NCBI RefSeq assembly: GCF_026004055.1
Contig: NZ_BPIJ01000003.1
Coordinates: forward strand, 282,406 to 346,405
Source: Meiothermus sp.
GTDB lineage: Bacteria > Deinococcota > Deinococci > Deinococcales > Thermaceae
Reading direction: 5' to 3'
DNA length: 64,000 nt
Shown: positions 7,807 through 51,395 of the stretch, piece after piece
Numbering within the stretch: position 1 is the first letter of the stretch
Layout: the number at the start of each line of letters is the position of its first letter
Notes under the pieces: generated by a model
Database searches by the model: none
What the model saw: the letters and a program-made list of their open reading frames with translations, nothing else
What the model was told of the DNA's origin: nothing
Program-made: the position numbers and the translations under genes

Positions 7807-8601
7807 ATGACTTCTCATTTTAGTCGGGTAGCCTTTACCTACGACCGGACGCGGTATCATCCGCCCGAGGTTTCCGGGCGCATCGCCACGGCGCTCACGG
7901 CCCCGGTGGAGAAGTTATTCCGCGACCCTTTATTCTTGGAAATAGGCGCAGGTACCGGCCGGATTTCGGTGCCGATTATTGCCCGGGGGTATCGCTACAT
8001 TGCCCTGGACGACAACCCGGCTATGCTCGAGGTATTGCGGCAAAAAGTGGCCGGCGTAGCCCGCAAAGCCCGTCTGGTCGAGGCCGATGCCCGCGAGCTG
8101 CCTTTCGAGCCTGCCAGCTTGCACGCAGTGATTGCGGTGCACTTCTGGCACCTTTTGGACAACTGGCAGCAGGCTTTGCGCGAATGTCTGCGGGTTTTGC
8201 GTCCGGGAGGTTTTTTGTTCGAGGGCTGGGACATCTCCGACGACGAGAGCGAAGACTGGCGTATCCAGCAAAAATGGAAAGAAATTCTGGCCGGTCTGGG
8301 CTATACCCTGGTGCGAGGCCGCCACCAGGCCCGCCTGGCCGAGGTAGAAAAGGCGTTGCTCCGCCACGGCCTCGAGCCCAAAGCCAAAACCGTGGCCGAC
8401 TGGGTCGAACTGCGCAGCCCTCGCACCAGCCTCGAGATGCTCCTGGAGCGCATCTACTCCTTCACCTGGGACGTTCCGGAGGAAGTTTTTAGGCCCTCGG
8501 TGGCTGAACTGGCCCATTGGATTAGTGAGACCTACCCCGACCCCGACATGGAATACCCCATTCACTGGAAATTCGTGGTGCGCAGTAGCCGGGTTCCTTA
8601 G
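7807..8601 (+). CDS. Class I SAM-dependent methyltransferase
   Basis: A 264-residue protein with a Rossmann-type methyltransferase domain. Motif I is FLEIGAGTGRI (about residues 43-53), the acidic residue binding the ribose is in ALDDNP, and the post-motif is RVLRPGGFLFEGWD. The family methylates small molecules, quinone precursors or macromolecules; the substrate cannot be told. A TAAAAT sequence 5 bases before the ATG and a TTGATC further up are possible promoter elements, and another TATAAT lies at 7763-7768. The gene stands alone, right of the IS element. Its TAG stop directly touches the left terminal repeat of a MITE-like element. Confidence 0.85.
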   Translation: MTSHFSRVAFTYDRTRYHPPEVSGRIATALTAPVEKLFRDPLFLEIGAGTGRISVPIIARGYRYIALDDNPAMLEVLRQKVAGVARKARLVEADARELPFEPASLHAVIAVHFWHLLDNWQQALRECLRVLRPGGFLFEGWDISDDESEDWRIQQKWKEILAGLGYTLVRGRHQARLAEVEKALLRHGLEPKAKTVADWVELRSPRTSLEMLLERIYSFTWDVPEEVFRPSVAELAHWISETYPDPDMEYPIHWKFVVRSSRVP

Positions 8602-8894
8602 TGGTCTGATAACTTTTTTTCTTTGTCATTCCGAACAGAACAAAGCGATGTGTGGAATCTGATGCACCCTAGAGCAGTTCCCACGAATACCCCCAACAGC
8701 GGTGTGTGCTGGTGGGGGTAAAATACTGGCCGCCGCAAGGGCTGTGTTTGTGGAAGCGCGATGGTCCACCGCATACACCATCCGTGTGCAGTACCAGATT
8801 CCTCGTTGCACGGCGTGCGCCTCTCAATCAACAAGAAGTGGAGGGCAGAAGTTGGGTTCGTTAGCGGTATCCCGATTATTCTGTTACCAGAGCA
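8602..8894. mobile_element. MITE-like element, 293 bp, TGGTCTGRTAAC ends
   Basis: The left end is TGGTCTGATAAC (8602-8613) and the right end GTTACCAGAGCA (8883-8894); the terminal repeats match at 10 of 12 positions. It has no coding capacity. It fills exactly the space between the stop codons of two convergent genes, the methyltransferase and hisA. Its interior contains a GTCATTCCGAA...GGAATCTG motif with a partial inverted copy near 8800, and one copy of repeat family A at 8674-8764. Related ends occur at 42.0 and 60.3 kb. Confidence 0.7.
8674..8764 (+). repeat. Interspersed repeat family A, copy 1
   Basis: About 90 bp beginning GCAGTTCCCACGAATAC and ending GGAAGCGCGATGG, shared with 29855-29942 and more distantly with 34207-34298. 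It contains a perfect 8-bp stem, TACCCCCA (8688-8695) with TGGGGGTA (8713-8720). This copy lies inside the MITE-like element. Confidence 0.65.
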
Positions 8895-9596
8895 CTAAAC
8901 CCACTTCTTCAAGTCAATACGGCCCTCGTAAATGGCCTTGCCGGTAATGGCACCCTCCACCCCCAGGTTTTGCAGGGCCTCGAGGTCGGCATCTGAGGCG
9001 ATACCTCCTCCGGCAATCAAGAAGCCCGGCCAGACCGCGCGAACCTCGCGCACCACCGCCAGGTCGAGCCCGGCTAGGGTTCCATCGCGGCGCACATCGG
9101 TATAAATCAGGGTGCGAACCCCCCTATCCCATAGCTGCTGGCTCAGGCTTTTTACACTTAGGGCGGTCTGTTCGGCCCACCCCGAGATCACCACCTCCAA
9201 ACCCCTGGCGTCCAGGCTCACCACCACCCGCTCGGCTCCAAATGCCGCCAGCATCTGGCCCAGCACTTCTGGCGCCTTTACGGCCACGGTACCCACCACG
9301 ACTCGGTGGGCTCCCAAGGCCAGCATCTCGCGGGCCGCCTCTACACTGCGAACGCCACCCCCCACCTCAAAGGGGATGGTCACGGCCGCCGCAACTTCGC
9401 GCAAAACCGCCCGGTTCTCTCCCCGGCCTGTCGCCGCATCCAAGTCTACTAGGTGCAGCATGTGGGCACCCTGGGCCTGCCAGTGCAAGGCCGCCTCCAC
9501 CGGGTTCTCGTAGTAGACGGTTTCTTGGCTGGGGTCGCCTTCAAACAAACGCACGGCCCGCCCGGACTGGATATCTACCGCAGGAATAACCAACAC
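8895..9596 (-). CDS. hisA: Phosphoribosylformimino-AICAR-phosphate isomerase
   Basis: HisA catalyses the Amadori isomerisation of ProFAR to PRFAR in histidine synthesis. The 233-residue TIM barrel has both phosphate-binding halves: FEVGGGVRS (first) and LIAGGGIASDADL (second). The catalytic Asp residues are in IPAVDIQSGR (about residue 8) and VSLDARG (about 128). Length is normal for the family. The GTG start lies 6 bases after TACAAT, so it is leaderless. No other his genes are nearby. The gene abuts a MITE-like element at its TAG stop. Confidence 0.95.
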   Translation of the reverse strand: MLVIPAVDIQSGRAVRLFEGDPSQETVYYENPVEAALHWQAQGAHMLHLVDLDAATGRGENRAVLREVAAAVTIPFEVGGGVRSVEAAREMLALGAHRVVVGTVAVKAPEVLGQMLAAFGAERVVVSLDARGLEVVISGWAEQTALSVKSLSQQLWDRGVRTLIYTDVRRDGTLAGLDLAVVREVRAVWPGFLIAGGGIASDADLEALQNLGVEGAITGKAIYEGRIDLKKWV

Positions 9597-14868: not shown

Positions 14869-16707
14869 TTATGCTCCGAAACAAACCTGGTTGCGGCGTT
14901 TGCGCTTGGCCTCGTAGAGGTACAGGTCGGCTGCCATGAGCAGCTTTTCATGGTTGGAAGCAGCCGGCGCGTCGGACACCCCGATGCTGACCGTGACCAC
15001 CAGATCGGGGTGGATAGGGCTCCAGTCGTGCACCTCGATGCGCCGGCGCAGGCGCTCGCAGGCAGCGGCAGCCTCGAGCAGGGGGGTTTGGGGAAACACC
15101 ACCACAAACTCCTCCCCGCCGTAGCGGGCGATCAGCTCGGCTTGCGGCAGGGTTTCTTTGAAGAGGGCAGCAGTGGTTTTGAGCACCTCGTCGCCCACCT
15201 GATGGGAGTAGGTGTCGTTGATGGCCTTAAAGTGGTCGAGGTCAATCAGGGCTACGCTCAAGGGCCATTGCTCGGCGCGGGACTGCTCGAAGAGGCGACG
15301 AAGCTCTTGCTCGAGGTAGCGGCGGTTGTACAGCCCGGTCAGGTGGTCGGCGCGCACCATCTGCTCGAGCTGGGCCAGCAGTTGGCTTTTTTCGCGGTCG
15401 GCCTGCTTTAGGGCTTCGTTAGCCGAGACCAGCTCGACGTTGCGCAAGCGCACAATCTCGGCTTGCTTAAGGGCTTGTTCGGCCTGGAAGCGGATCAGGA
15501 GGGCCAGGGTTTTGCGCTCGAGCTGTTCGCGCAGGGTGGCTGTGGTGAGTTCGTGGTACAGCCGGTGTTGCTGGAGGGCCAGGGCAAACTGGCCCTTGTG
15601 CTGCCAGCACTCCGACAAATAGAGATGTACTTGGGTATGGGCCTTGCGGTTGCCCCCGGACTGGGCTACCTGCAGGGCTTCCTCGAGGGTACGCTGGGCC
15701 CTCTCGTAGCTGCGCTTTTCCAGCCAGATGCGACCCATCTGTACCAACAACTCGGCCTCGGTATGGCGGTTGTGCAGTTCGCGCTCGAGGGACAGGGCTT
15801 GTTGGTTGAGCTCGAGGGCGGTGTCGTACTGCCCCAGAGCCGAGTAGGCAAGGGCCAGGTTGCCCAAGGCGCTGGCCTCAATCCGCCGATCCTGTAGCTT
15901 CTGAGCCAGTCCCAGGGCTTGCTGGCTGTACTCGAGCGACGAAGGGTAAGCGTCCAGGCGGTAGTAGGTAAAACCCAGGTTGTTGCGGATAACCGCCTCG
16001 CGCTGCTGGTTGCCCACCCGGACGCAGATCTCCAGACCCTTCTGAAACAGCTCCAGGGCCTGGGAGAGCTCCCCTTGCTCCAGGTAGACCGCCCCCAGGT
16101 TGCCCAGGGCGGCCCCTTCGGCATCGGGGCTGCCCAGGTGCTGGGCCAGTTCCAGACTTTGCAGATAAAGTTCGGCGGCGCCCTGGTAGTCGAACAGCGA
16201 GAAATAGGTGCCGGCCAGCCCGTTGAGGGCAATGATTTCCTGGTTTTTGTCTTCCAGGCGGTGGGCCAGCTCGAGGGCCTGGGTGTAATGCTGGATGGCG
16301 GTGCGGTACTCCCCCAGCATGCGCTGCACATGGCCCAGCAAATTAAAGGTCTTGGCTTCCAGGGCCGGGTCGGGCCCCAACGATAGCAGGGTGTTTAGGT
16401 TGGCGCAGGCCTCGAGGTACTGCCCCAGCCGGTACTGGCTCTCGCCCAGCAGGCTTAGGGCCGGCAACCGCAGTTTATCCAGACCACTTTCTTCACAAAG
16501 CCGCACAGCTTGCCGGGCCATATCCAGAGCCTGGGCCGGGCTGATGCGCAAAACCTCGCAGCCCAGATCCACCAGGGTCAGTACCCGCTCGGCAACCGTA
16601 GGGGTTGTTGCAGATAGGAGATGGGTAGCGGCGTGGTTCAGAATTACTCCTCTGGATGTGGCATCAATATGGCAAAAAGAGCCAACTTGGCTCGAGCCTA
16701 GAGGCAA
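14869..16707 (-). CDS. TPR-repeat diguanylate cyclase, I-site lost
   Basis: Up to 612 residues with the same layout as the next gene: TPR repeats (about 50-400), a coiled coil (ALKQADREKSQLLAQLEQ) and a GGDEF domain with GGEEF at about 530-534. The RxxD inhibitory motif is absent; the equivalent residues are PQAE. The start is uncertain: the first frame-opening codon is TTG at 16707 without a ribosome site, while AGAGGAG precedes a CTG at 16641 with good spacing. The two genes form a tandem duplicate pair likely transcribed together. Confidence 0.88.
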   Translation of the reverse strand: MPLGSSQVGSFCHIDATSRGVILNHAATHLLSATTPTVAERVLTLVDLGCEVLRISPAQALDMARQAVRLCEESGLDKLRLPALSLLGESQYRLGQYLEACANLNTLLSLGPDPALEAKTFNLLGHVQRMLGEYRTAIQHYTQALELAHRLEDKNQEIIALNGLAGTYFSLFDYQGAAELYLQSLELAQHLGSPDAEGAALGNLGAVYLEQGELSQALELFQKGLEICVRVGNQQREAVIRNNLGFTYYRLDAYPSSLEYSQQALGLAQKLQDRRIEASALGNLALAYSALGQYDTALELNQQALSLERELHNRHTEAELLVQMGRIWLEKRSYERAQRTLEEALQVAQSGGNRKAHTQVHLYLSECWQHKGQFALALQQHRLYHELTTATLREQLERKTLALLIRFQAEQALKQAEIVRLRNVELVSANEALKQADREKSQLLAQLEQMVRADHLTGLYNRRYLEQELRRLFEQSRAEQWPLSVALIDLDHFKAINDTYSHQVGDEVLKTTAALFKETLPQAELIARYGGEEFVVVFPQTPLLEAAAACERLRRRIEVHDWSPIHPDLVVTVSIGVSDAPAASNHEKLLMAADLYLYEAKRKRRNQVCFGA

Positions 16708-42528: not shown

Positions 42529-43527
42529 ATGGGGGGCGCATCCGTAACTGAGCAGCGGCTGGGTTCAGAGCTAGTAGACGATTTGCAACACACCAACGGC
42601 GGACACGTCAAGCTCTTTTGCGGCAATGCCAACCGTCCCCTGGCCGAAGCGGTGGCCAAAGCCCTCGGGGTGCAGCTCGGCAAGGCCACCGTGGAGCGCT
42701 TCCCCGATGGCGAGGTGCAGGTGCGTTTGCTGGAGAGCATCCGGGGCGACGATGTGTACCTGATCCAGCCCACCGCTCCACCGGTCAACGATAATCTGAT
42801 GGAATTGCTGGTGTTGGCCGACGCGGTGCGCCGCAGCAGCGCCGGGCGTATCAATGCGGTCATTCCCTACTTTGGCTATGCCCGCCAGGACAAACAAACC
42901 CAGGGCCGCGAGCCCATCACCGCCCGGCTGGTAGCGGGCCTGCTAGAGCACGTGGGCATCCACCGGGTAATTACCGTAGACCTGCACGCCCCCCAGATTC
43001 AGGGGTTTTTTTATCAGCCGGTGGACGAGCTCTCGGCGGTGCGGCTATTCGCCGAGTACCTGGAAAGCCAGCACCTGACCGAAAACGCCGTGGTGGTCTC
43101 GCCCGACTCGGGCCGGGCCGAGCAGGCCCGCAGGCTCTCCGAGCGGCTGGGCCTGCCCCTGGCCATCCTGGCTAAGCGCCGCACCGGCCCCCGCGAGACC
43201 CAGGTCAGCTATGTGATTGGGGATGTGGCGGGCAAGCGCCCCCTCATCATTGATGACATCATCTCCACCGGCGGCACCATCCGGCGCGGGGTGGAGGCCC
43301 TGCTGGCCGCCGGGGCCGCCCCAGAAGTGGTGGTGATGGCCTCGCACGCGGTGCTGGTGGGCAACGCCCGCGAGAACCTGGCCCACCCGGCCATCCGCGA
43401 GGTGGTCTTTACCGATACCATCGCGCTTAATCCAGCGCTGGGCTACACCATCCTGCCCACCGCGCCCCTCCTGGCCCAGGCCATCCGGCGGGTGCACACC
43501 AACCAGTCGGTGAGTGTGTTGATCTAA
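42529..43527 (+). CDS. prs: Ribose-phosphate pyrophosphokinase
   Basis: It makes PRPP from ribose 5-phosphate and ATP for nucleotide, His and Trp synthesis. The 332-residue protein contains KLFCGNANRPLAEAVAKALG, the catalytic flexible loop YFGYARQDKQTQGREPITA, the divalent-metal motif TVDLHAPQIQGFF and the PRPP loop LIIDDIISTGGTI near 245. An N-terminal extension of about 25 residues precedes the usual start, but the ribosome site supports it. Its TAA overlaps the stop of the convergent peptidase gene by 4 bases. Confidence 0.95.
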   Translation: MGGASVTEQRLGSELVDDLQHTNGGHVKLFCGNANRPLAEAVAKALGVQLGKATVERFPDGEVQVRLLESIRGDDVYLIQPTAPPVNDNLMELLVLADAVRRSSAGRINAVIPYFGYARQDKQTQGREPITARLVAGLLEHVGIHRVITVDLHAPQIQGFFYQPVDELSAVRLFAEYLESQHLTENAVVVSPDSGRAEQARRLSERLGLPLAILAKRRTGPRETQVSYVIGDVAGKRPLIIDDIISTGGTIRRGVEALLAAGAAPEVVVMASHAVLVGNARENLAHPAIREVVFTDTIALNPALGYTILPTAPLLAQAIRRVHTNQSVSVLI

Positions 43528-45119
43528 GGGCCGCCGGACATATCCAGCAAGCCCTGTCCCCTGGCCTCCACCGGCGCATCCCCCAGGGGGGTAGGGTTGG
43601 TCAGGTTGGCCAGCAGGGTGAGCTCCAAGGCCTCCGGGGTGAGGGGGGTGAAAACGCTGGCCTGGCGCAAAACCGCCGCCGCCCCGGCCACCAGGGGAGC
43701 GGCAAACGAGGTGCCGGTGAACTCGGCCTCGAGGTTCGCCGGGCGCAGGCTCCGCACCCGCTCACCCGGCGCCACCAGGTCTAGGTAATCGCCTTGGTTG
43801 CTGAAGCTGCTCACGCGGAAGGCCGTACCGTAAAGCCCCACCGCCCCCACGCTCAACAGCCCCTTCAGAGGGGTCATGCGGCGGGCGGGGTCGCGGTGCG
43901 CCGAGAGCCCCCGGTTCCCTCCAAAGGAAGCCGGGAAGTGGTGCAACACGCCTTTCTTGCTACTGCGGATGGCCCACTGGTTGCCGGCGGCGGCCACCAC
44001 CGGAACCCCCTTCACCCCACGCTTCATGAGGGCATCTTTGAGCAGGATGTAGACGATCTCGCTGGGGGTATCGCTGCCTAGGCTAAGGTTCAGCACAAGT
44101 TTCTGATTGGTGTTCTTTTCGGCATAGGCCACCGCATGACAGATCCCCCGGATGACCGCCGAGAGAGCGCACTTGCCGTCTTTGTCGCAGCTTTTGATGG
44201 GGAGGATTCCGGCTGCAGACGCCACCCCGTAGGCTGCATCGGCGGCCAGCACCGCCGCGGCGGTGCCGTGGCCCAGGCCATCTTTGTACTCGTCTAGGTT
44301 GGGGTTGGGGGTTGTGGGGTTGGTAAAGTCGGCCCCACCGGAACGGAGGTTGAGGCTGGTTAGGTTGGCCACCCCGGTGTCCACGATGGCGATGGTGGTA
44401 CCTGCGCCGGTGAAGTTGCTGGCCGGGTTGCGCTGGATGGCCTGCCGGGCGTTGATGGGGCTGCTGTTCGGGCTGGGGGGCAGGTCGGAGCCGGTGTCGT
44501 AGCCGGTCAGGGGGTCTATGCCCAGAATGCCGTCCAGGTCTACCACTGCGCCTGCAGCGGCGGCCTCGAGCCGCTCCAGCAAAGCCCCCACCGCCAGGGG
44601 TGGGCCGGAAGCCTGGGCCACCTGGGCCAGCCTCCCCGCACAGGGCCCGGCGTCGCCGCCCAGGGGTATGGAGGGTTCTCCTTGGGATCCAGGCACCACC
44701 CGTAGCCCGGCCCCGGCCACCTGCTGGGCAAAGGCGCTGTCGGTCACGCTCGGCTTGAGCACCACCAGGGCTCCCGCGCCCACGCTCTCGCCCAGCACGG
44801 TCAGGCTGCCGGTAGCCCGGTTGGCCCCGTCGGTAATGTCCAGCGCCTGCGGGCCACCCCAGAAGTTGGGGGGCACTTTGAAGACTACCGTGCTGCCCGC
44901 CCCCGCCGGCTCAGTCCGCAGGCCGCCGACCTCCTCCCCCGCCAGGCGCAGGCGCAGACCCCCGCTCGCCCGCCAGGGCAGACCCACCCGTACCTCCTCC
45001 TCCCAGGCCGCCCGCCTGGGCGAGGGATAGACCTCCGCCGTGATAGGGGTACTCCCACGTCCTGAAAGGTCGCAGCCCACCAGACTCATCACCGCCGCCA
45101 ACACCAGCATCCATCGCAT
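43524..45119 (-). CDS. Subtilisin-like (S8) serine peptidase lipoprotein 1
   Basis: A 531-residue exported protease. The signal MRWMLVLAAVMSLVGC has a lipobox with Cys16. A propeptide-like region to about 230 precedes the catalytic domain, with Asp247 (IAIVDTGVAN), His284 (GLGHGTAAAV), the oxyanion Asn380 (VAAAGN) and Ser471 (GTSFAAPLVAGAA). Insertions around a CDKDGKC motif may form a disulfide. The ATG at 45119 has GGAGG upstream. Its promoter carries a putative SARP site, and the gene is adjacent to the SARP gene in the same direction. Confidence 0.9.
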   Translation of the reverse strand: MRWMLVLAAVMSLVGCDLSGRGSTPITAEVYPSPRRAAWEEEVRVGLPWRASGGLRLRLAGEEVGGLRTEPAGAGSTVVFKVPPNFWGGPQALDITDGANRATGSLTVLGESVGAGALVVLKPSVTDSAFAQQVAGAGLRVVPGSQGEPSIPLGGDAGPCAGRLAQVAQASGPPLAVGALLERLEAAAAGAVVDLDGILGIDPLTGYDTGSDLPPSPNSSPINARQAIQRNPASNFTGAGTTIAIVDTGVANLTSLNLRSGGADFTNPTTPNPNLDEYKDGLGHGTAAAVLAADAAYGVASAAGILPIKSCDKDGKCALSAVIRGICHAVAYAEKNTNQKLVLNLSLGSDTPSEIVYILLKDALMKRGVKGVPVVAAAGNQWAIRSSKKGVLHHFPASFGGNRGLSAHRDPARRMTPLKGLLSVGAVGLYGTAFRVSSFSNQGDYLDLVAPGERVRSLRPANLEAEFTGTSFAAPLVAGAAAVLRQASVFTPLTPEALELTLLANLTNPTPLGDAPVEARGQGLLDMSGGP

Positions 45120-45177
45120 CTTGAACCTCCAGATAGAGGGTCTCCTCGAGCCAGTACGCGCTTCGTGGCATGTCTTC

Positions 45178-45211
45178 ATACTGTTATGGCTACCCTGAAC
45201 GCTCCATGAAC
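45178..45211 (-). promoter_or_regulatory. Putative SARP operator and -10 for S8 peptidase 1
   Basis: Reading the minus strand, GTTCATGGAGCGTTCAGG (45211-45194) contains two heptamers with an 11-bp period, followed after exactly 10 bases by CAGTAT (45183-45178). The transcription start would give a leader of about 50 bases with a GGAGG ribosome site. The heptamers lie in the last codons of the SARP gene. Confidence 0.6.
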
Positions 45212-47565
45212 GCCCGCAGTTGCTCGCGCTGCTGCTGGGCCAGGTCGAAGTATCCGGCGTTCTCCGAGACCGCGATGGCCTCCTGCCAGACCTCGAGGTC
45301 GCCCAATAGCTCGGCCAGGTTGGAGAGGGCCAGGGCCAGCACATAGGCCTCGCCCGCCTCCCGCGCCGCCAGGATGGCCTTGTGGTAGTAGTGTTTGGCT
45401 TCGTCCAGGCGGTTTTGCATGTGGAACAAAGCCCCGATGTTGTTCTGAGCCAGGGCCGCTTTCTTGAGGTTGCCCGCCTCCTGGGCCAGCCCTTCGGCCT
45501 CACGGTAGCTCTCCAGGGCTTCTTCGAAGCGTTTTTGTCGTTCCAGTTCCTTGCCCAGGTTGATGAGGGCCTGGGCTTTGAGGTTCTTGTTGTCCTGGGC
45601 GGCTTCCAGAAGCTCCTGGAAAACCAGGGTCACGTCCTCGCCCATGCGGGCGCGGGCAATGGCTGCGTTGCTGAGCGCATCCAGGCGCCGGTTTTCATCC
45701 CCCAAACCCAGCCACAAAGCGGCGGCCCGTCGAAAGGCCCCGGCGGCCTCTATAAAGCTGCCTTTGGCCAGAAAAATCAGGCCCAGGGTGTTCTGCGCCT
45801 CGGCCCGGGCCTCCATGCCCCCCGAAAGAGCCTTCTCGGCAGCGGCCTGGGCCTCCTCGGCCCGGCCCAACCGGTGGAAGAGGGCGGCCAGCAGGGCCTG
45901 TTGCTCGGAGCTCGGGGGTAAAAAGCGCACTACCTCGAGGGCTTCCTTGTACATGCCCGCCCGCTCCAGGGCCCGTGCGCGCAGCAGGGCAATCTCGGGG
46001 TGGGCCGGGGCTTCGGCCAGCTCCTCGGCGGCGCGTTTGGGAAAGCCCCGCCGGATGAGCTCGCTGGCCCAGGTGATGTAGGCCTGCTGCAGGTGGGGCA
46101 GGTCGGCGTCCTCGAGCAACCCTCGAGCCCGGCGGTACAGCGGCAGGGCTTGTTGGGGTTTGAGCCGGCGGGCCAGCCCCAGGCTGAGCCGGGCCTCGAG
46201 GGTGGGGCGTTCGGCCAAAAAGCGCAGGGCCGCCTCGCGCCCAAAAACCACCCCGTTCAGGTCAATCAGGCCGGCGGAAAGAAGCAAGTCTACGGCCTGG
46301 GCCATCTCGGTCGCGTTCAGGCCCAGGGCCTGGCGTACCAGCAGCAGGTCGGGGGTTTCCAGCAAGGCCAGGCCCATGTAGACCTGCCGAACCGGCTCGG
46401 GCAAGCCCAGCAGGCGGGCTTCCAGGGCAGTCTGGATGGGCTCACCGCGCAGCCAGGCGCCCACCAGGGCGGGCACGCCCCCGGTGGTCTCGAAAGCCCC
46501 CGGATAACTGGCCAGCTCCTCTAGGGTGAGGGGCTCCAGCTCAACCAAGCGGTCTACCGCAAAGGGGGGCTCCCCCCGGCCCGCAAGCACCACCCGGATG
46601 GGTGGGCGCAAAGCCCGCAAGCGGGTAAGGATGCGCTGACTCTCGGGGTCTATCTGCTCCCAGTCGTCGAGCAGCAGGTTCTCGCGCAGCTGGGCAATGC
46701 CGCGCAGCAGGGCCTCCTCGCCCCCCTGGATGTTCTCGAGCAGGGGTTCCAGTGTGGCGTAAGGGAGCCCTGTGCGGGCCGGTAGGTACAGCCAGCCGGT
46801 GCGACCCGCCACCTCGTGCAGCAGGGCGGTCTTGCCCATCCCGGCCCCACCCCTAACCCAGGCCCAGGCCCCCTCCTGGAGGGCCAGCAAAGTGGCCATC
46901 TCGGGCTCCCGCCCCACCAGGGCTTGGCGCAGGCGACCCCGCGCAGCCTGGCTCGAGCCGCCCAACGTAATGCCCAGCTCTCGCGCCTCGCGCTCGAGGG
47001 CCTCGGCCAGGGGATGCTCGGCCGCCAGCAGCAGCCGGTACACCTTGGGCAGCTCCTCCGGCTCCAAAGGCGGTGCACCGGCCACCTGGTGGGCGTGTTC
47101 GGCCTTACGGGCGGCTTCGCCAAACTTCCCCTGGTGAGCAGCTTTTTCGGCCAGAACCAGATACGCCTGCCGAACCTCCGAAGCCAGCCGCTCGCGCACC
47201 CCCAGCACCCACTCCTCCAGCTCTGCGCCCAGGCTCTCCTTCAGCCCCTCGGCAAAAGGCCCTCTGTAAAAGCCCACCCCCTCTTCCCAGCGTCCCGCCC
47301 GCAGGGCATCCTGCAAGGCCAGGGCGTCGCAGTCCAGATCTACCCAGGCCCGGCTCTCGTCGTTGTAGGCCACGCCCAGCTTGCGCAGCTTGGCCAGCGC
47401 CACCGCCAGCGAGTTCATGGGGTCGGCAGCCTCGGGCCAGAACAGCTCGGCCAGAAAGCGCCTTGGCTTGGGGCCCTCCAGGGCCAGGTAGGCCAGGAGC
47501 AACAGGGGCTTCTCCCGGCTGAAACTGCTCCCCTCCAGCCGCAGGCCGCCCAGGGTGTGAAGCAT
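45190..47565 (-). CDS. SARP-type regulator with AAA and TPR domains
   Basis: A 791-residue transcription regulator. Residues 1-90 match the winged-helix domain of SARP proteins (MLHTLGGLRLEG, then LLLLAYLALEGPKPRRFLAELFWP). Residues about 95-190 are a bacterial transcriptional activation (BTAD) domain. A STAND/AAA-like ATPase follows with Walker A GGAGMGKT at 239-246 and a DDWEQID Walker B type segment near 295. The C-terminal third is TPR repeats. The ATG is 6 bases from TAAACT, so it is leaderless. It is surrounded by the three promoters that carry the double-heptamer motif, and is their likely activator. Confidence 0.88.
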   Translation of the reverse strand: MLHTLGGLRLEGSSFSREKPLLLLAYLALEGPKPRRFLAELFWPEAADPMNSLAVALAKLRKLGVAYNDESRAWVDLDCDALALQDALRAGRWEEGVGFYRGPFAEGLKESLGAELEEWVLGVRERLASEVRQAYLVLAEKAAHQGKFGEAARKAEHAHQVAGAPPLEPEELPKVYRLLLAAEHPLAEALEREARELGITLGGSSQAARGRLRQALVGREPEMATLLALQEGAWAWVRGGAGMGKTALLHEVAGRTGWLYLPARTGLPYATLEPLLENIQGGEEALLRGIAQLRENLLLDDWEQIDPESQRILTRLRALRPPIRVVLAGRGEPPFAVDRLVELEPLTLEELASYPGAFETTGGVPALVGAWLRGEPIQTALEARLLGLPEPVRQVYMGLALLETPDLLLVRQALGLNATEMAQAVDLLLSAGLIDLNGVVFGREAALRFLAERPTLEARLSLGLARRLKPQQALPLYRRARGLLEDADLPHLQQAYITWASELIRRGFPKRAAEELAEAPAHPEIALLRARALERAGMYKEALEVVRFLPPSSEQQALLAALFHRLGRAEEAQAAAEKALSGGMEARAEAQNTLGLIFLAKGSFIEAAGAFRRAAALWLGLGDENRRLDALSNAAIARARMGEDVTLVFQELLEAAQDNKNLKAQALINLGKELERQKRFEEALESYREAEGLAQEAGNLKKAALAQNNIGALFHMQNRLDEAKHYYHKAILAAREAGEAYVLALALSNLAELLGDLEVWQEAIAVSENAGYFDLAQQQREQLRAFMERSG

Positions 47566-47571
47566 GCCCCT

Positions 47572-47577
47572 AGTTTA
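47572..47577 (-). promoter_or_regulatory. -10 hexamer of the SARP gene
   Basis: TAAACT on the minus strand, 6 bases before the ATG. The corresponding -35 zone (about 47595-47600) overlaps the double heptamer at 47593-47610, which would allow autoregulation. Confidence 0.5.
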
Positions 47578-47592
47578 CCGACCCCTGTGGCC

Positions 47593-47626
47593 GTTCATGG
47601 AGCGTTAAGGGGTGTTTCGTTAATCT
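47593..47626 (+). promoter_or_regulatory. Putative SARP operator and -10 for the gene at 47633
   Basis: GTTCATG (47593-47599) and GTTAAGG (47604-47610) are 11 bp apart. Ten bases later comes TAATCT (47621-47626), then six bases and the GTG start at 47633. Confidence 0.6.
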
Positions 47627-47632
47627 CCAAGC

Positions 47633-47974
47633 GTGCTACGGTTTATGGCTTTTGGCGACAATGTCCTGTACAGGCTGACCAGCAGCGACCAGAGCGGCAG
47701 CGGCACCAAGACCCTCACTCCGGCTATTCAGGTGAGTGTTTCGGTAGGGGCGTTGCTCGAGGGCATGGCCTTCGACGAGGGCGGCGGGATGTGGATTACC
47801 TACTCCGCCGGCAAGTTTGCCCGTCTCTCCTCTTCACAACTCGGCACCAGCAGCACCTCGGGTAGCCCCACCACTCCCGAGCGTATTATTACCAGCAACA
47901 GCATCGGCAGTGCGGGAGGCCTGGCCCTATATCCCGCCCCGGCCAGTCTCCCACTCTTCCACAAGTTGCCATAG
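47633..47974 (+). CDS. Short beta-propeller-like protein, possibly truncated
   Basis: A 113-residue product starting VLRFMAFGDNVLYRL at a GTG six bases after a -10. The pattern GALLEGMAFDEGGGMWITYSAGKFARLS resembles one or two blades of an NHL or beta-propeller protein, and the end IGSAGGLALYP looks like the terminal strand of a larger one. No signal peptide is present, so it may be the 3' remnant of a longer gene now driven by a recruited promoter. It ends before a strong terminator. It lies between the SARP gene and the second protease. Confidence 0.5.
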   Translation: MLRFMAFGDNVLYRLTSSDQSGSGTKTLTPAIQVSVSVGALLEGMAFDEGGGMWITYSAGKFARLSSSQLGTSSTSGSPTTPERIITSNSIGSAGGLALYPAPASLPLFHKLP

Positions 47975-47993
47975 ATCTTTTGCCAATCCCTCA

Positions 47994-48017
47994 ATCCCGC
48001 CCTAGGGCGGGATTTTT
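47994..48017 (+). terminator. Rho-independent terminator
   Basis: A perfect palindrome (ATCCCGCCCT and AGGGCGGGAT, 47994-48013) followed by TTTT lies 20 bases after the stop of the 47633 gene and insulates it from the downstream protease promoter. Confidence 0.8.
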
Positions 48018-48043
48018 GGTTTGTCGGACTTGTGTTCCCAGTC

Positions 48044-48077
48044 GTTCATGGGTCGTTCAACCCCTCGCCTCTACCCT
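48044..48077 (+). promoter_or_regulatory. Putative SARP operator and -10 for S8 peptidase 2
   Basis: GTTCATG (48044-48050) and GTTCAAC (48055-48061) are 11 bp apart, and TACCCT (48072-48077) follows after exactly 10 bases. A GTTCCCA at 48034 might be a weaker third repeat. The leader of about 37 bases ends in GGAGG before the ATG at 48121. Confidence 0.65.
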
Positions 48078-48120
48078 TGGAGCAGCTTCGGGAGAACCCG
48101 AAGACCCGAGGAGGAAAACC

Positions 48121-50643
48121 ATGAAACACCTTTGGAAAGCACTCTTTACCAGCTCGCTGCTCTTGTTGGCGGCCTGTGGAACCCAAAGGCCCGCCGGAAC
48201 CTTGCAAATTCCTGTGGACACCAGCCTGACTCCCGCCCAGGCCACCCTCCCCGGCCCCGACGGCAGCCCGCGCCCGCTGGCCCGCATGGTGGGCGAAAGC
48301 GGGATCCCCATGGACTTTGTGCTGGGCGAGCTGGTGGTCAGCACCGATGACGAATCCAAGCTCAATGCCTTCCTGGCCCGCTGGGGCGGGCAGGTGATAG
48401 GTCAGGCGGAAAAGGTGGGCGACGCCCCCAAAACCTATCAGGTGAAGCTCAACCCCTCGGCGGCCCAGGTGGAGCGCATCCTGCAGCAGCTCAACCAGAA
48501 CCTACCCGACCTGAAGGGGCGTTTTAGCACCTCGAGCCCTGCTGCCGCCCAGTTGCTGGCGGTGGCGCTGGCCGAGGCCCACCAGGAAAAAATGACCGTC
48601 ACCCCCAACTTTGTGCTTACCTCCGGGGCCATCGCCGACGGAAGCACCAGCGAAGCCCCTACATCGGAATCCGATGGCATTCCCTACAGCCCCAGTGCCT
48701 TCCAGTGGACCTACATGAACCGGGGCAGCGCCCAGGATATTGGGGTAGGTGAGGCCTGGCGCTTGCTCGCGCGGGCCGGACGCTTTAGCAACAAGGTTCG
48801 CATCATGATTCTGGACGGTGGGTTTGCGCCCAGCGGCGACTTCCCCGAAACCAGCCAGGTAGTGGGAAGCTGGAACGAACCCAACGCCCTGCAATGCTCG
48901 GGCGGAAATTCCTGCCCCTGGCACGGCACCCACGTCACGACCTCGGCCATGGGCCGTCCCGACAATGCCTTTGGCGTGGCGGGCCCCGCTGGGCCGGTAG
49001 GGGAGCTGCTGGCGGTGCCTTTCCAGGGAGACTTTATCGGTATTATCACCACCCTCGAGCGCATCATCACCGCTACCCTTTTCGGCAATCCCAAAATCAT
49101 CAACATGAGCTTTGGCTTCGAGCTCGATCTGGGCTGGGACGCCGCAGTCAAAGTGGCCTGCCTGTTCCTATGCCCCGCGCCCAGCGAGATCATAGACGGC
49201 TTCACCGCAGCGGTTTCGGCAAGTGGCAAGCTAATTTTTGCTTCAGCGGGGAATGACGGCAAGGACGTGGACAACGGCGGCGGCATCGAAGGCTCGACCC
49301 ATATTCCCTGCGAGTCGGTCGGGGTGATCTGCGTGGGAGGCATGGCCCACGACGCCACAGCCCGCGACGCAGGTTCCAACTTTGGCAGCAAGCGCGACGA
49401 CAACAGCGTGGACATCTATGGGCCTTACTGGCTCTGGGTCGGCTTCGACCCCGACAACCGGGCCAATCAGGCCCGCCTGCGGGCCGGCACCAGTTATGCC
49501 TCCCCCTTTGTGGCCGGGGTGGCGGCGCTGGTCTGGGCAGCCAACCCCTCTCTGAACGCCGGTCAGGTCTGGGCCATCCTGCGCGATACGGCCCATGTGG
49601 GTGGGGTGGGGGTACGGGGCCACGAGCGCCGGGTGAATGCCTTTGCTGCGGTTTCCCGGGCCCTCGAGGTGGGCACCAGCGGCCCCAGCATCGCGCTGAG
49701 CGACTCGGCCACCGCCCACCTCAACCGCGAGTGGAGTGTGACCGCCAACGTGACCGATTTTGCCGGGAACAACTGCCCACCCGTCTACTGCCCGCTATCC
49801 TTTGACCCGGCCCCCACCCGGATCGTGGGCAACACCGCCTTCTACCGGTTCAATACGGCAGGAAGCCGCACGGTTCGGGTCACAACCCGCGATCTGCTGG
49901 GCCGTGAAGCCAGCGAGAGCCGGACGGTCATGGTAGTAAATACCCCGCCGGAGGTCTCGATTTCCCAACCCAGCAGCGGCGCCAGCTTCTTTGTGGGGCA
50001 GAGCGTGCAACTGCTGGGTTCGGCCACCGACCTGAACGAAGGCCCCGACCCCGGCCCCGGCCCTATTGCCTGCCGCTGGACCAGCAGCAATTCTGGGGAC
50101 ACCAGTTTCCCTCGCACCGGCTGCAACACCACCGCCAGCTTCTCCACCACCGGCACCCGCACCCTCACCCTGACCGCCACCGACCCCCAGGGGCTCAGCA
50201 CTTCAGCCAGCGTGAGCATCACCATCAACCCCGCCCCGGCCAACCTGCCGCCCAACATCACCCTCGGTAGTTTGTCACCGGCCACTCCCAACTACATAGA
50301 TGGCTACTCCTGGAGCACTCGGCTGACCGCCACCGGCAGCGCCACCGACCCCGAGGGCAACACCCCCATCACCTACACCTGGCGGGCCACCTCGTTCCGG
50401 CCCAATAGCACTACCGTCTGGCGCAGCAACATCACCCTCAGTACCAGCACCACCAACGGCAACCTGGATTGGACGCCCAGTTCCTTCAACCCCAGCAACT
50501 TGATCGGCGACTTAGGTGATTTTGGTAACGACTGCTACAACGGCCAGATCGTGCGGCTGACGCTGACCGCTACCGACTCGCTGGGCAACAGCAGCACCCG
50601 CAGCCTGCCCGATATCAAGGTATACCGCTGCACGCTGGATTGA
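48121..50643 (+). CDS. Subtilisin-like (S8) serine peptidase lipoprotein 2
   Basis: An 840-residue exported protease. The signal MKHLWKALFTSSLLLLAAC has a lipobox with Cys19. A propeptide (about 40-200) precedes the catalytic domain with Asp232 (MILDGGFAP, where the usual DTG/DSG is DGG), His268 (CPWHGTHVTTSAMG), Asn378 (ASAGND) and Ser458 (GTSYASPFVAGVAAL). Three Ig-like or PKD-like domains follow (for example EVSISQPSSGASFFVGQSV near 645), probably to hold cell-wall or S-layer glycans. GGAGGAAAACC precedes the ATG. It belongs to the putative SARP regulon. Confidence 0.92.
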   Translation: MKHLWKALFTSSLLLLAACGTQRPAGTLQIPVDTSLTPAQATLPGPDGSPRPLARMVGESGIPMDFVLGELVVSTDDESKLNAFLARWGGQVIGQAEKVGDAPKTYQVKLNPSAAQVERILQQLNQNLPDLKGRFSTSSPAAAQLLAVALAEAHQEKMTVTPNFVLTSGAIADGSTSEAPTSESDGIPYSPSAFQWTYMNRGSAQDIGVGEAWRLLARAGRFSNKVRIMILDGGFAPSGDFPETSQVVGSWNEPNALQCSGGNSCPWHGTHVTTSAMGRPDNAFGVAGPAGPVGELLAVPFQGDFIGIITTLERIITATLFGNPKIINMSFGFELDLGWDAAVKVACLFLCPAPSEIIDGFTAAVSASGKLIFASAGNDGKDVDNGGGIEGSTHIPCESVGVICVGGMAHDATARDAGSNFGSKRDDNSVDIYGPYWLWVGFDPDNRANQARLRAGTSYASPFVAGVAALVWAANPSLNAGQVWAILRDTAHVGGVGVRGHERRVNAFAAVSRALEVGTSGPSIALSDSATAHLNREWSVTANVTDFAGNNCPPVYCPLSFDPAPTRIVGNTAFYRFNTAGSRTVRVTTRDLLGREASESRTVMVVNTPPEVSISQPSSGASFFVGQSVQLLGSATDLNEGPDPGPGPIACRWTSSNSGDTSFPRTGCNTTASFSTTGTRTLTLTATDPQGLSTSASVSITINPAPANLPPNITLGSLSPATPNYIDGYSWSTRLTATGSATDPEGNTPITYTWRATSFRPNSTTVWRSNITLSTSTTNGNLDWTPSSFNPSNLIGDLGDFGNDCYNGQIVRLTLTATDSLGNSSTRSLPDIKVYRCTLD

Positions 50644-50732: not shown

Positions 50733-51395
50733 ATGAGGAAACTCTGGGTTGTGATTGGAACCGGCCTATGCGCTTTAGCGCTGGCCCAGGCGGTGCAAAA
50801 GACCTATCGCCTCCTCATCAACGGCCAGGCCGCCAGCGGGCAGGCAGTGGTGGTGGGGGGCAAGACCTATGTTTCGCTGGATGCGCTGAAGGCCGCCGGG
50901 GTGGGCGTGAGCCTCTCGGGCTCCACCCTGAGCCTCACCCTGCCGGGCGCTCCGCAGGCCCAGGGCGGGGCCAACCAGGTGGCGGCCTTAGAGGGTTGCC
51001 TGAACGAGTGGCTCTTCAATGGCATCTGGCGCTTCCGGGTGCTCTCCGTAGAGCCCCTGCCCCCCGGAGGGCGGGGGGGCTGGAAGGCCAAAGTAGAGTT
51101 GCGCAACGGCACCAACGTCAACGGCGCGGCGTTGGCCGGTACCGGCTGGCAGGGCCTGCTCTTGGCCCTGGACAACGGCAACACCGTTGAGTCGGGCTAT
51201 GTTCAGATGCGGGACAAGCCTTTTGCCCAGGGCACCGGCATGGTGCAGGAGGCGGTGTTCTACTCCAAGGAGACCGACCGAACCCCCACCAAGCTGCTGT
51301 TGCTGCTCGAGCCTAAGAAGATGCTTACCACCCTTCCGGTTCGATACAGCGTGGCCGACCCCAGCTTCCGGGTGCGGCTGGACTGCCGTAAGTAG
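50733..51395 (+). CDS. Secreted protein with copper-amine-oxidase-like N-domain
   Basis: A 220-residue exported protein. The signal peptide MRKLWVVIGTGLCALALA is followed by KTYRLLINGQAASGQAVVVGGKTYVSLDALKAAGVGVSLSGSTL, the repeat fold called the copper amine oxidase N-domain or stalk domain, common in wall-associated proteins. The C-terminal 130 residues have no known family but contain two Cys (EGCLNEWLF and the last DCRK) that could pair. AAAGGAGG precedes the ATG and TACACT near 50701 is a likely -10. It lacks the SARP heptamers. Confidence 0.7.
   Translation: MRKLWVVIGTGLCALALAQAVQKTYRLLINGQAASGQAVVVGGKTYVSLDALKAAGVGVSLSGSTLSLTLPGAPQAQGGANQVAALEGCLNEWLFNGIWRFRVLSVEPLPPGGRGGWKAKVELRNGTNVNGAALAGTGWQGLLLALDNGNTVESGYVQMRDKPFAQGTGMVQEAVFYSKETDRTPTKLLLLLEPKKMLTTLPVRYSVADPSFRVRLDCRK

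Follow-up and report, generated by a model that had tools for sequence, protein, structure and literature searches.

SARP (Streptomyces antibiotic regulatory protein) regulators are best known as switches of antibiotic genes in Streptomyces. In this study, we analysed a 64,000-nucleotide stretch of DNA from the hot-spring bacterium Meiothermus sp. (contig NZ_BPIJ01000003.1, positions 282,406 to 346,405, forward strand; hereafter the window), in which three double-heptamer promoter sites accompany the gene of a SARP-type regulator, SARP-A. The best comparison is AfsR and its afs box at the afsS promoter of Streptomyces coelicolor. AfsR binds two 11-bp repeats with the consensus CGTT(T/C)ATCGNN (PMC10972967; PMC10936776). 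The box lies at -40 to -19 over a poor -35 element, and the -10 element is CACTGT (PMC10936776). The SARP domain docks onto sigma region 4, and ATP binding relieves an inhibition exerted by the NOD and TPR domains (PMC10936776). SARP-LAL regulators such as PimR use direct repeats of a heptamer, two or three in number and separated by 4 nt (PMC5930380). SARP operators in the literature that we found were described from actinobacteria only, mostly from antibiotic clusters. In Deinococcus-Thermus, the functional -10 element is TANNNT directly before open reading frames (PMC12340547). Our analysis indicates that the three sites are very probably operators of the SARP-NOD-TPR protein encoded at 45190-47565, which would activate lipoprotein and protease genes. 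The regulator and the sites are as follows.

45190-47565, minus strand: SARP-A regulator, 791 aa (Pfam, hhalign, genus orthologues)
45194-45211, minus strand: operator 1, GTTCATG-GAGC-GTTCAGG, within the last codons of the SARP gene, serving S8 peptidase 1 (pattern match, synonymous constraint)
45178-45183, minus strand: -10 element of S8 peptidase 1, CAGTAT, with the A of position 2 and the T of position 6 invariant among relatives (alignment)
47593-47610, plus strand: operator 2, GTTCATG-GAGC-GTTAAGG (pattern match, alignment)
47621-47626, plus strand: -10 element after operator 2, TAATCT (alignment)
48044-48061, plus strand: operator 3, GTTCATG-GGTC-GTTCAAC, serving S8 peptidase 2 (pattern match, alignment)
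48072-48077, plus strand: -10 element after operator 3, TACCCT (alignment)

The locus shares with AfsR the SARP-NOD-TPR architecture, two 11-bp repeats with the core CGTT(C/T)A over the -35 region, and a weak -10 of the CANNNT type. The Meiothermus box, C-GTTCATGGNN-C-GTTMA, has the same core as the AfsR box and nearly the same position; its centre would be at about -30.5, compared with -29.5 for AfsR, if transcription of S8 peptidase 1 starts at a leaderless ATG. Unlike AfsR, whose targets are afsS and antibiotic genes, the targets here are lipoproteins and S8 proteases in a non-actinobacterial host, the operator is embedded in the 3' coding end of the regulator's own gene, and similarity in the SARP region is low, below Pfam detection. 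The heptameric repeats also resemble those of PimR, and promoters of the paralogue SARP-B often have three repeats; the PimR heptamer CGGCAAG, its polyene-cluster targets and its C-terminal half are different. GSU1771 of Geobacter sulfurreducens is likewise a SARP-family regulator outside Actinobacteria, but it is a receiver-domain SARP that targets electron-transfer and biofilm genes (PMC10599522). Closer in taxonomy is DnrS of Thermus thermophilus, a BTAD-domain activator in the same family of bacteria; unlike SARP-A, it has an N-terminal GAF and a C-terminal BTAD domain and serves oxygen and nitrate control of denitrification, and the available part of its description names no operator (PMC5748679).

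The three 18-mers were found exactly where the initial annotation had placed them. It was equally accurate on the 11-bp heptamer period and on the 10 bp that separate the second heptamer from CAGTAT, TAATCT and TACCCT, all of the form YANNNT. A pattern search without mismatches returned only these sites in the window, and they were also the only exact matches to GTTCATGNNNNGTTMA in the whole 3.18-Mb genome, all at promoters; the frequent random matches that the initial annotation had named as grounds for rejection did not occur. With one mismatch allowed, four more 18-mers were found in the genome, no more than with the reversed control. None of these (L004-L007) was at a plausible promoter, lying instead inside genes or otherwise misplaced. 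L005 overlaps a region of short repeated sequence. These results confirmed that the three double-heptamer promoters are not a product of chance.

We examined the conservation of the sites in 18 genomes of the genus; named records among the matches were Meiothermus taiwanensis and M. hypogaeus. A full-length SARP-A orthologue with 74-86% identity was present in 11 of them, including the window's own genome. The operator with its -10 element (34-mers) matched exactly 34 times, with matches in all 11 SARP-A genomes and none in the seven genomes without SARP-A; a reversed control gave three matches over all 18 genomes even with one mismatch allowed. The operator ahead of S8 peptidase 1 was kept in 11/11 SARP-A genomes, and those with the propeller lipoprotein gene and S8 peptidase 2 kept the operators of both. 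Loss of the operators where the SARP gene and proteases remain, the other outcome raised at the start, was found in no genome. An alignment of 28 sites showed no variation in either GTT triplet, in the A of either repeat, or in the A and T of the -10, while neighbouring DNA varied; a C preceded the first GTT in 24 of the sites. Mean column identity was 0.94-0.98 in the 18-mer, compared with 0.51 (S8 peptidase 2) and 0.59 (propeller gene) in the 40 bp upstream.

Operator 1 overlaps the SARP codons TTC ATG GAG CGT TCA GGG TAG (FMERSG-stop), so part of its conservation could be coding. Among amino-acid-invariant columns with synonymous codons in the 11 orthologues, only 71/421 were codon-invariant. 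The operator codons TTC, GAG, CGT (8% of Arg codons) and TCA (4% of Ser codons) were all frozen in the 11 genomes. Because these rare synonymous codons are frozen, the DNA is constrained beyond the protein, and coding is not the only cause of its conservation. The three sites are near-identical and close together and site 1 is coding, which would suit repeats that were copied of late or that recombine, or a by-product of coding at site 1, with no regulatory function. This explanation has a negligible probability: the frozen codons speak against it, as do the conservation of the sites in every SARP-A genome at 74-86% protein identity with the -10 A and T fixed, their persistence after 40-kb gene moves, and the operator variants in other genera and families.

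The gene moves also bear on which gene the operators serve. In two genomes (G005, G013), the block of propeller gene and S8 peptidase 2 lies about 40 kb from the SARP gene with its operators retained; in two others (G012, G001), the SARP and propeller genes are 2.7 kb apart and the operator stays with the propeller gene. These arrangements demonstrated that the operator follows its target gene when it is moved. In most relatives, as in the window, operator 2 begins 28 bp ahead of the start codon of SARP, and it might be supposed that SARP-A is a repressor, or that it mainly controls its own gene through this divergent site; direct binding would then be the same. We consider this very unlikely, since in all four genomes site 2 accompanies the propeller gene instead of SARP, and SARPs that act as activators are placed on the -35 region of promoters with no -35 box (PMC10936776). 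Activation of the target genes by SARP-A is therefore preferred.

Decay of the operators accompanies a SARP gene that has become a pseudogene or was not detected. In one genome (G006), SARP-A is a remnant interrupted by stops, the S8 peptidase 2 operator has one change (GTTCATA), S8 peptidase 2 is frameshifted, and no operator was found at the propeller promoter. This natural-loss case is seen at locus L128, with the SARP-A fragment at 15767-16001, the degraded operator at 9156 and the frameshifted S8 peptidase 2 at 7927-9087. In G015, SARP-A was not detectable, although gene absence is less certain in this 490-contig assembly, and both operators had a mismatch in the second repeat.

We then extended the search to 50 Thermaceae genomes with the general pattern GTTMA-N6-GTTMA-N12-TANNNT. 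There were 76 matches, compared with one for the reversed control. The pattern was present in 33/37 genomes with a SARP of this family and in 1/13 without (Fisher p = 1.8e-7), the sole SARP-negative genome with the pattern being a 65%-complete assembly. In SARP loci totalling 0.73 Mb, 56 matches had a repeat distance of 11 and 12 matches a distance of 22, while every other distance from 5 to 24 gave at most one. Likewise, the spacer after GTTMA was 12 nt in 56 matches and 23 nt in 13, with at most three for other spacers; the matches at distance 22 and spacer 23 fit the presence of a third repeat. Operators of large SARPs are described as direct repeats spaced by 11 or 22 bp that overlap the -35 region, and such repeats were found here. 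In the window's own genome, four of five matches were at SARP loci and the fifth lay between folD-like and nusB-like genes.

Variants of the operator accompany the SARP paralogues of the family. SARP-B is a shorter paralogue of about 565 aa without the NOD domain, found in Meiothermus, Thermus and allies, that adjoins another S8 lipoprotein; its sites read GTTCAGR-N4-GTTAAGR, and a third repeat is frequent. Three GTTCA-type repeats with an 11-bp period were seen in the promoters at L113 (G013), L115 (G005), L110 (G001), L148 and L152. For SARP-C, inspection of three sequences by eye, with no statistics, gave the variant TAACG-N6-TAACG at the equivalent position in three genomes. At these loci (L048, L049, L144), TAACG-N6-TAACG-N10-TACAWC lies at the regulator's 3' end, and the recognition helix is KVVLHRLRQ or KVVLHKLRG, compared with AVALAKLRK in SARP-A. 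In two other families of the order, we examined seven loci of SARP-NOD-TPR relatives at 40-47% identity. Five had the same plan of S8 lipoprotein, TTCAG-type repeat and TANNNT, the sixth had a GGTCA-type repeat and no S8 gene, and the seventh had no such repeat. Operator-like sites upstream of gene starts resembling other SARP/BTAD-type regulators were also seen at L182 (G034:C61) and L183 (G037:C1); cross-regulation or chance is possible there. These results indicate that the regulon, not being confined to Meiothermus, extends through Thermaceae and beyond.

A PhoB/PhoP-type response regulator of the OmpR family might also bind such repeats. Pho boxes are 11-bp direct repeats near -35 as well; the Streptomyces Pho box, with the S. 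coelicolor motif GTTCACC, is a near-identical half site bound by the same winged-helix type (PMC4415409), and PhoP and AfsR overlap at afsS (PMC4415409, PMC10972967). PhoB and PhoP differ from SARP-A in their two-component receiver domain and phosphate genes. If this were an OmpR regulon, operators should occur wherever OmpR-type regulators do. Ten SARP-negative Thermus genomes carry 7-10 OmpR-type (PF00486) domains each, yet no such operator. The folD-like/nusB-like outlier is not a phosphate operon, and the operators track SARP presence and paralogue identity, not OmpR-type regulators. A Pho-type regulator is therefore very unlikely. Since the paralogues have their own variants and the operators decay without an intact SARP gene, SARP control of the regulon is supported: the operators exist, are constrained and exactly spaced, track the SARP gene and precede lipoproteins, with variants beside the paralogues.

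The SARP-A protein consists of a SARP region (winged helix-turn-helix and BTA) at about aa 1-200, a NOD/STAND ATPase with the Walker A motif GGAGMGKT at about aa 214-400, and TPR repeats at about aa 490-790. In Pfam, TPR families were above the cut-off, and AAA_16 was weak (E 8e-4, below cut-off). Pfam and NCBIfam named the N-terminus poorly, and PDB sequence searches returned TPR proteins only or nothing relevant. Against proteins from ten loci of its own genome chosen for Pfam-BTAD matches, the N-terminus was matched by hhalign with a probability of 99.5% (E 8.6e-23). The paralogue SARP-B in the same genome passes the Pfam BTAD cut-off. Since the N-terminus matches BTAD proteins by profile and a paralogue passes the cut-off, SARP-A is an AfsR-like SARP-NOD-TPR protein. 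By this profile match it has the N-terminal OmpR-type DNA-binding domain and all-helical BTA domain of a large SARP of the AfsR type, and its C-terminal NOD (STAND ATPase) and TPR domains agree with that class.

However, several points weigh against this assignment and the regulon built on it. The Pfam models Trans_reg_C and BTAD gave no direct match to SARP-A. The AlphaFold model of the N-terminus, from six sequences, had a pLDDT of 65.7, with the DNA-binding part below 50, and Foldseek and VIA-align with this poor model returned generic TPR folds only. The distance from the 3' repeat to the -10 was a constant 10 bp over the sites analysed, in the heptamer phase of the initial annotation, compared with 8 bp in published SARPs, a figure that depends on where the heptamer is set. 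Four SARP-positive genomes (G020, G029, G043, G046) had no TANNNT match, G020 having a CACGCT version. Finally, SARP presence and operators are both inherited, so the genomes are not independent observations. On the other side, operator conservation, co-occurrence with the SARP gene, the profile match and the likeness to the AfsR box all support the SARP-type regulon that was first proposed.

In the proposed mechanism, two SARP domains would sit side by side in the -35 region, one on each GTTCA-type repeat. The target promoters have no good -35 box, and SARP-A would hold RNA polymerase on a TANNNT (or CANNNT) -10, as AfsR does at afsS. Until a signal comes, SARP-A would be kept inactive by its NOD and TPR domains. 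Once active, it would turn on two subtilisin-like protease lipoproteins and, in relatives, a propeller lipoprotein and others. We infer that SARP-A binds the operators directly, that it activates and does not repress, and that its C-terminal domains gate it. The regulator's own gene carries the operator of protease 1 in its final codons.

The target genes in the window and one transcript feature are as follows.

43524-45119, minus strand: S8 peptidase 1, subtilisin-like lipoprotein (MRWMLVLAAVMSLVGC...; Pfam PF00082 E 1e-27; lipobox)
48121-50643, plus strand: S8 peptidase 2, 840-aa subtilisin-like lipoprotein (MKHLWKALFTSSLLLLAACG...; Pfam PF00082 E 1e-20; lipobox)
47633-47974, plus strand: remnant (C-terminal ~112 codons) of a ~441-aa NHL/propeller lipoprotein gene (comparison with full-length relatives)
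48086-48103, plus strand: inverted repeat in the 5' untranslated region, CTTCGG-gagaac-CCGAAG, kept in S8 peptidase 2 orthologues (read from alignment)

In relatives, operator 2 precedes a lipoprotein gene of 440-460 aa. In the window, the first 45 bp match the promoter of these genes, and what follows corresponds to their codons from about 330 on. A deletion at ~47637-47645 has removed about 1.04 kb, start codon and signal peptide included, and has left operator 2 intact. The initial annotation was right on operator 2 and its -10, but its "gene at 47633" is not a whole gene. Over 84 distinct sites, an automatic signal-plus-lipobox rule found a lipoprotein downstream of 63, and about six more were recognised by eye; the remaining sites were mostly contig ends, the window's remnant gene or probable chance matches. 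The targets included S8 proteases, NHL/propeller, Ig-like and laminin-G-like lipoproteins, and unknown families. The proposal of a protease-controlling SARP therefore held in part, as S8 proteases are among the targets of a system that serves lipoproteins in general, and "lipoprotein regulon including proteases" describes it better than "protease regulon". The inverted repeat lies just after the presumed transcript start of S8 peptidase 2, with conserved stems and varying loops among orthologues, and inverted repeats ahead of the ribosome site were also seen in other lipoprotein transcripts of the regulon. Downstream of S8 peptidase 2, a gene at 50733-51395 encodes a 220-aa secreted protein, with relatives beside S8_2-type genes (L123, L126, L127, L128).

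Upstream of S8 peptidase 1, we found a conserved leaderless micro-open reading frame (micro-ORF).

45109-45171, minus strand: conserved start of the micro-ORF (MPRSAYWLEETLYLEVQDAMD), with its ATG 6 nt after the -10, overlapping the S8 peptidase 1 start out of frame

In twelve SARP-A-type loci, the ATG is exactly six nt past the -10 of S8 peptidase 1, and the frame opens with MPxSAYxLEE (more fully MPxSAYxLEETLxLEV). Codon differences in this frame were 305 synonymous to 230 non-synonymous, compared with 50:502 and 83:469 in the other frames, which suggests that the micro-ORF is coding. In other families and in Thermus, comparable starts (MPRSVIELD, MPISIIEID, MPLSLWDLD) were seen at the corresponding position. 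Equivalents were seen at L038-L047, L147, L196, L198-L200, L150, L155 and L159. The GAG-GTx codons of the micro-ORF form the S8 Shine-Dalgarno sequence, and translational coupling to S8 peptidase 1 would be the plainest reading. RRNPP systems pair a TPR regulator with a cognate exported pro-peptide. The locus has both a TPR regulator and a conserved micro-ORF, whose product showed no evident signal peptide. It is very unlikely that the product (MPxSxxxLE...) acts as a signal or regulator, with the S8 lipoprotein protease processing the peptide and the SARP TPR domain sensing it. If true, the locus would form a self-contained peptide-sensing circuit, linked to a protease, in Deinococcota.

Searches of the open-licence literature found no account of this regulon. 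The operator code is readable enough for SARP targets to be predicted genome by genome. Since Thermus polymerase and genetics are standard tools, SARP activation would be testable there, outside Streptomyces. The paralogues with altered half sites may serve as material for the evolution of SARP specificity. These results suggest that an AfsR-like protein, operator and promoter geometry serve surface lipoproteins and proteases in another phylum.

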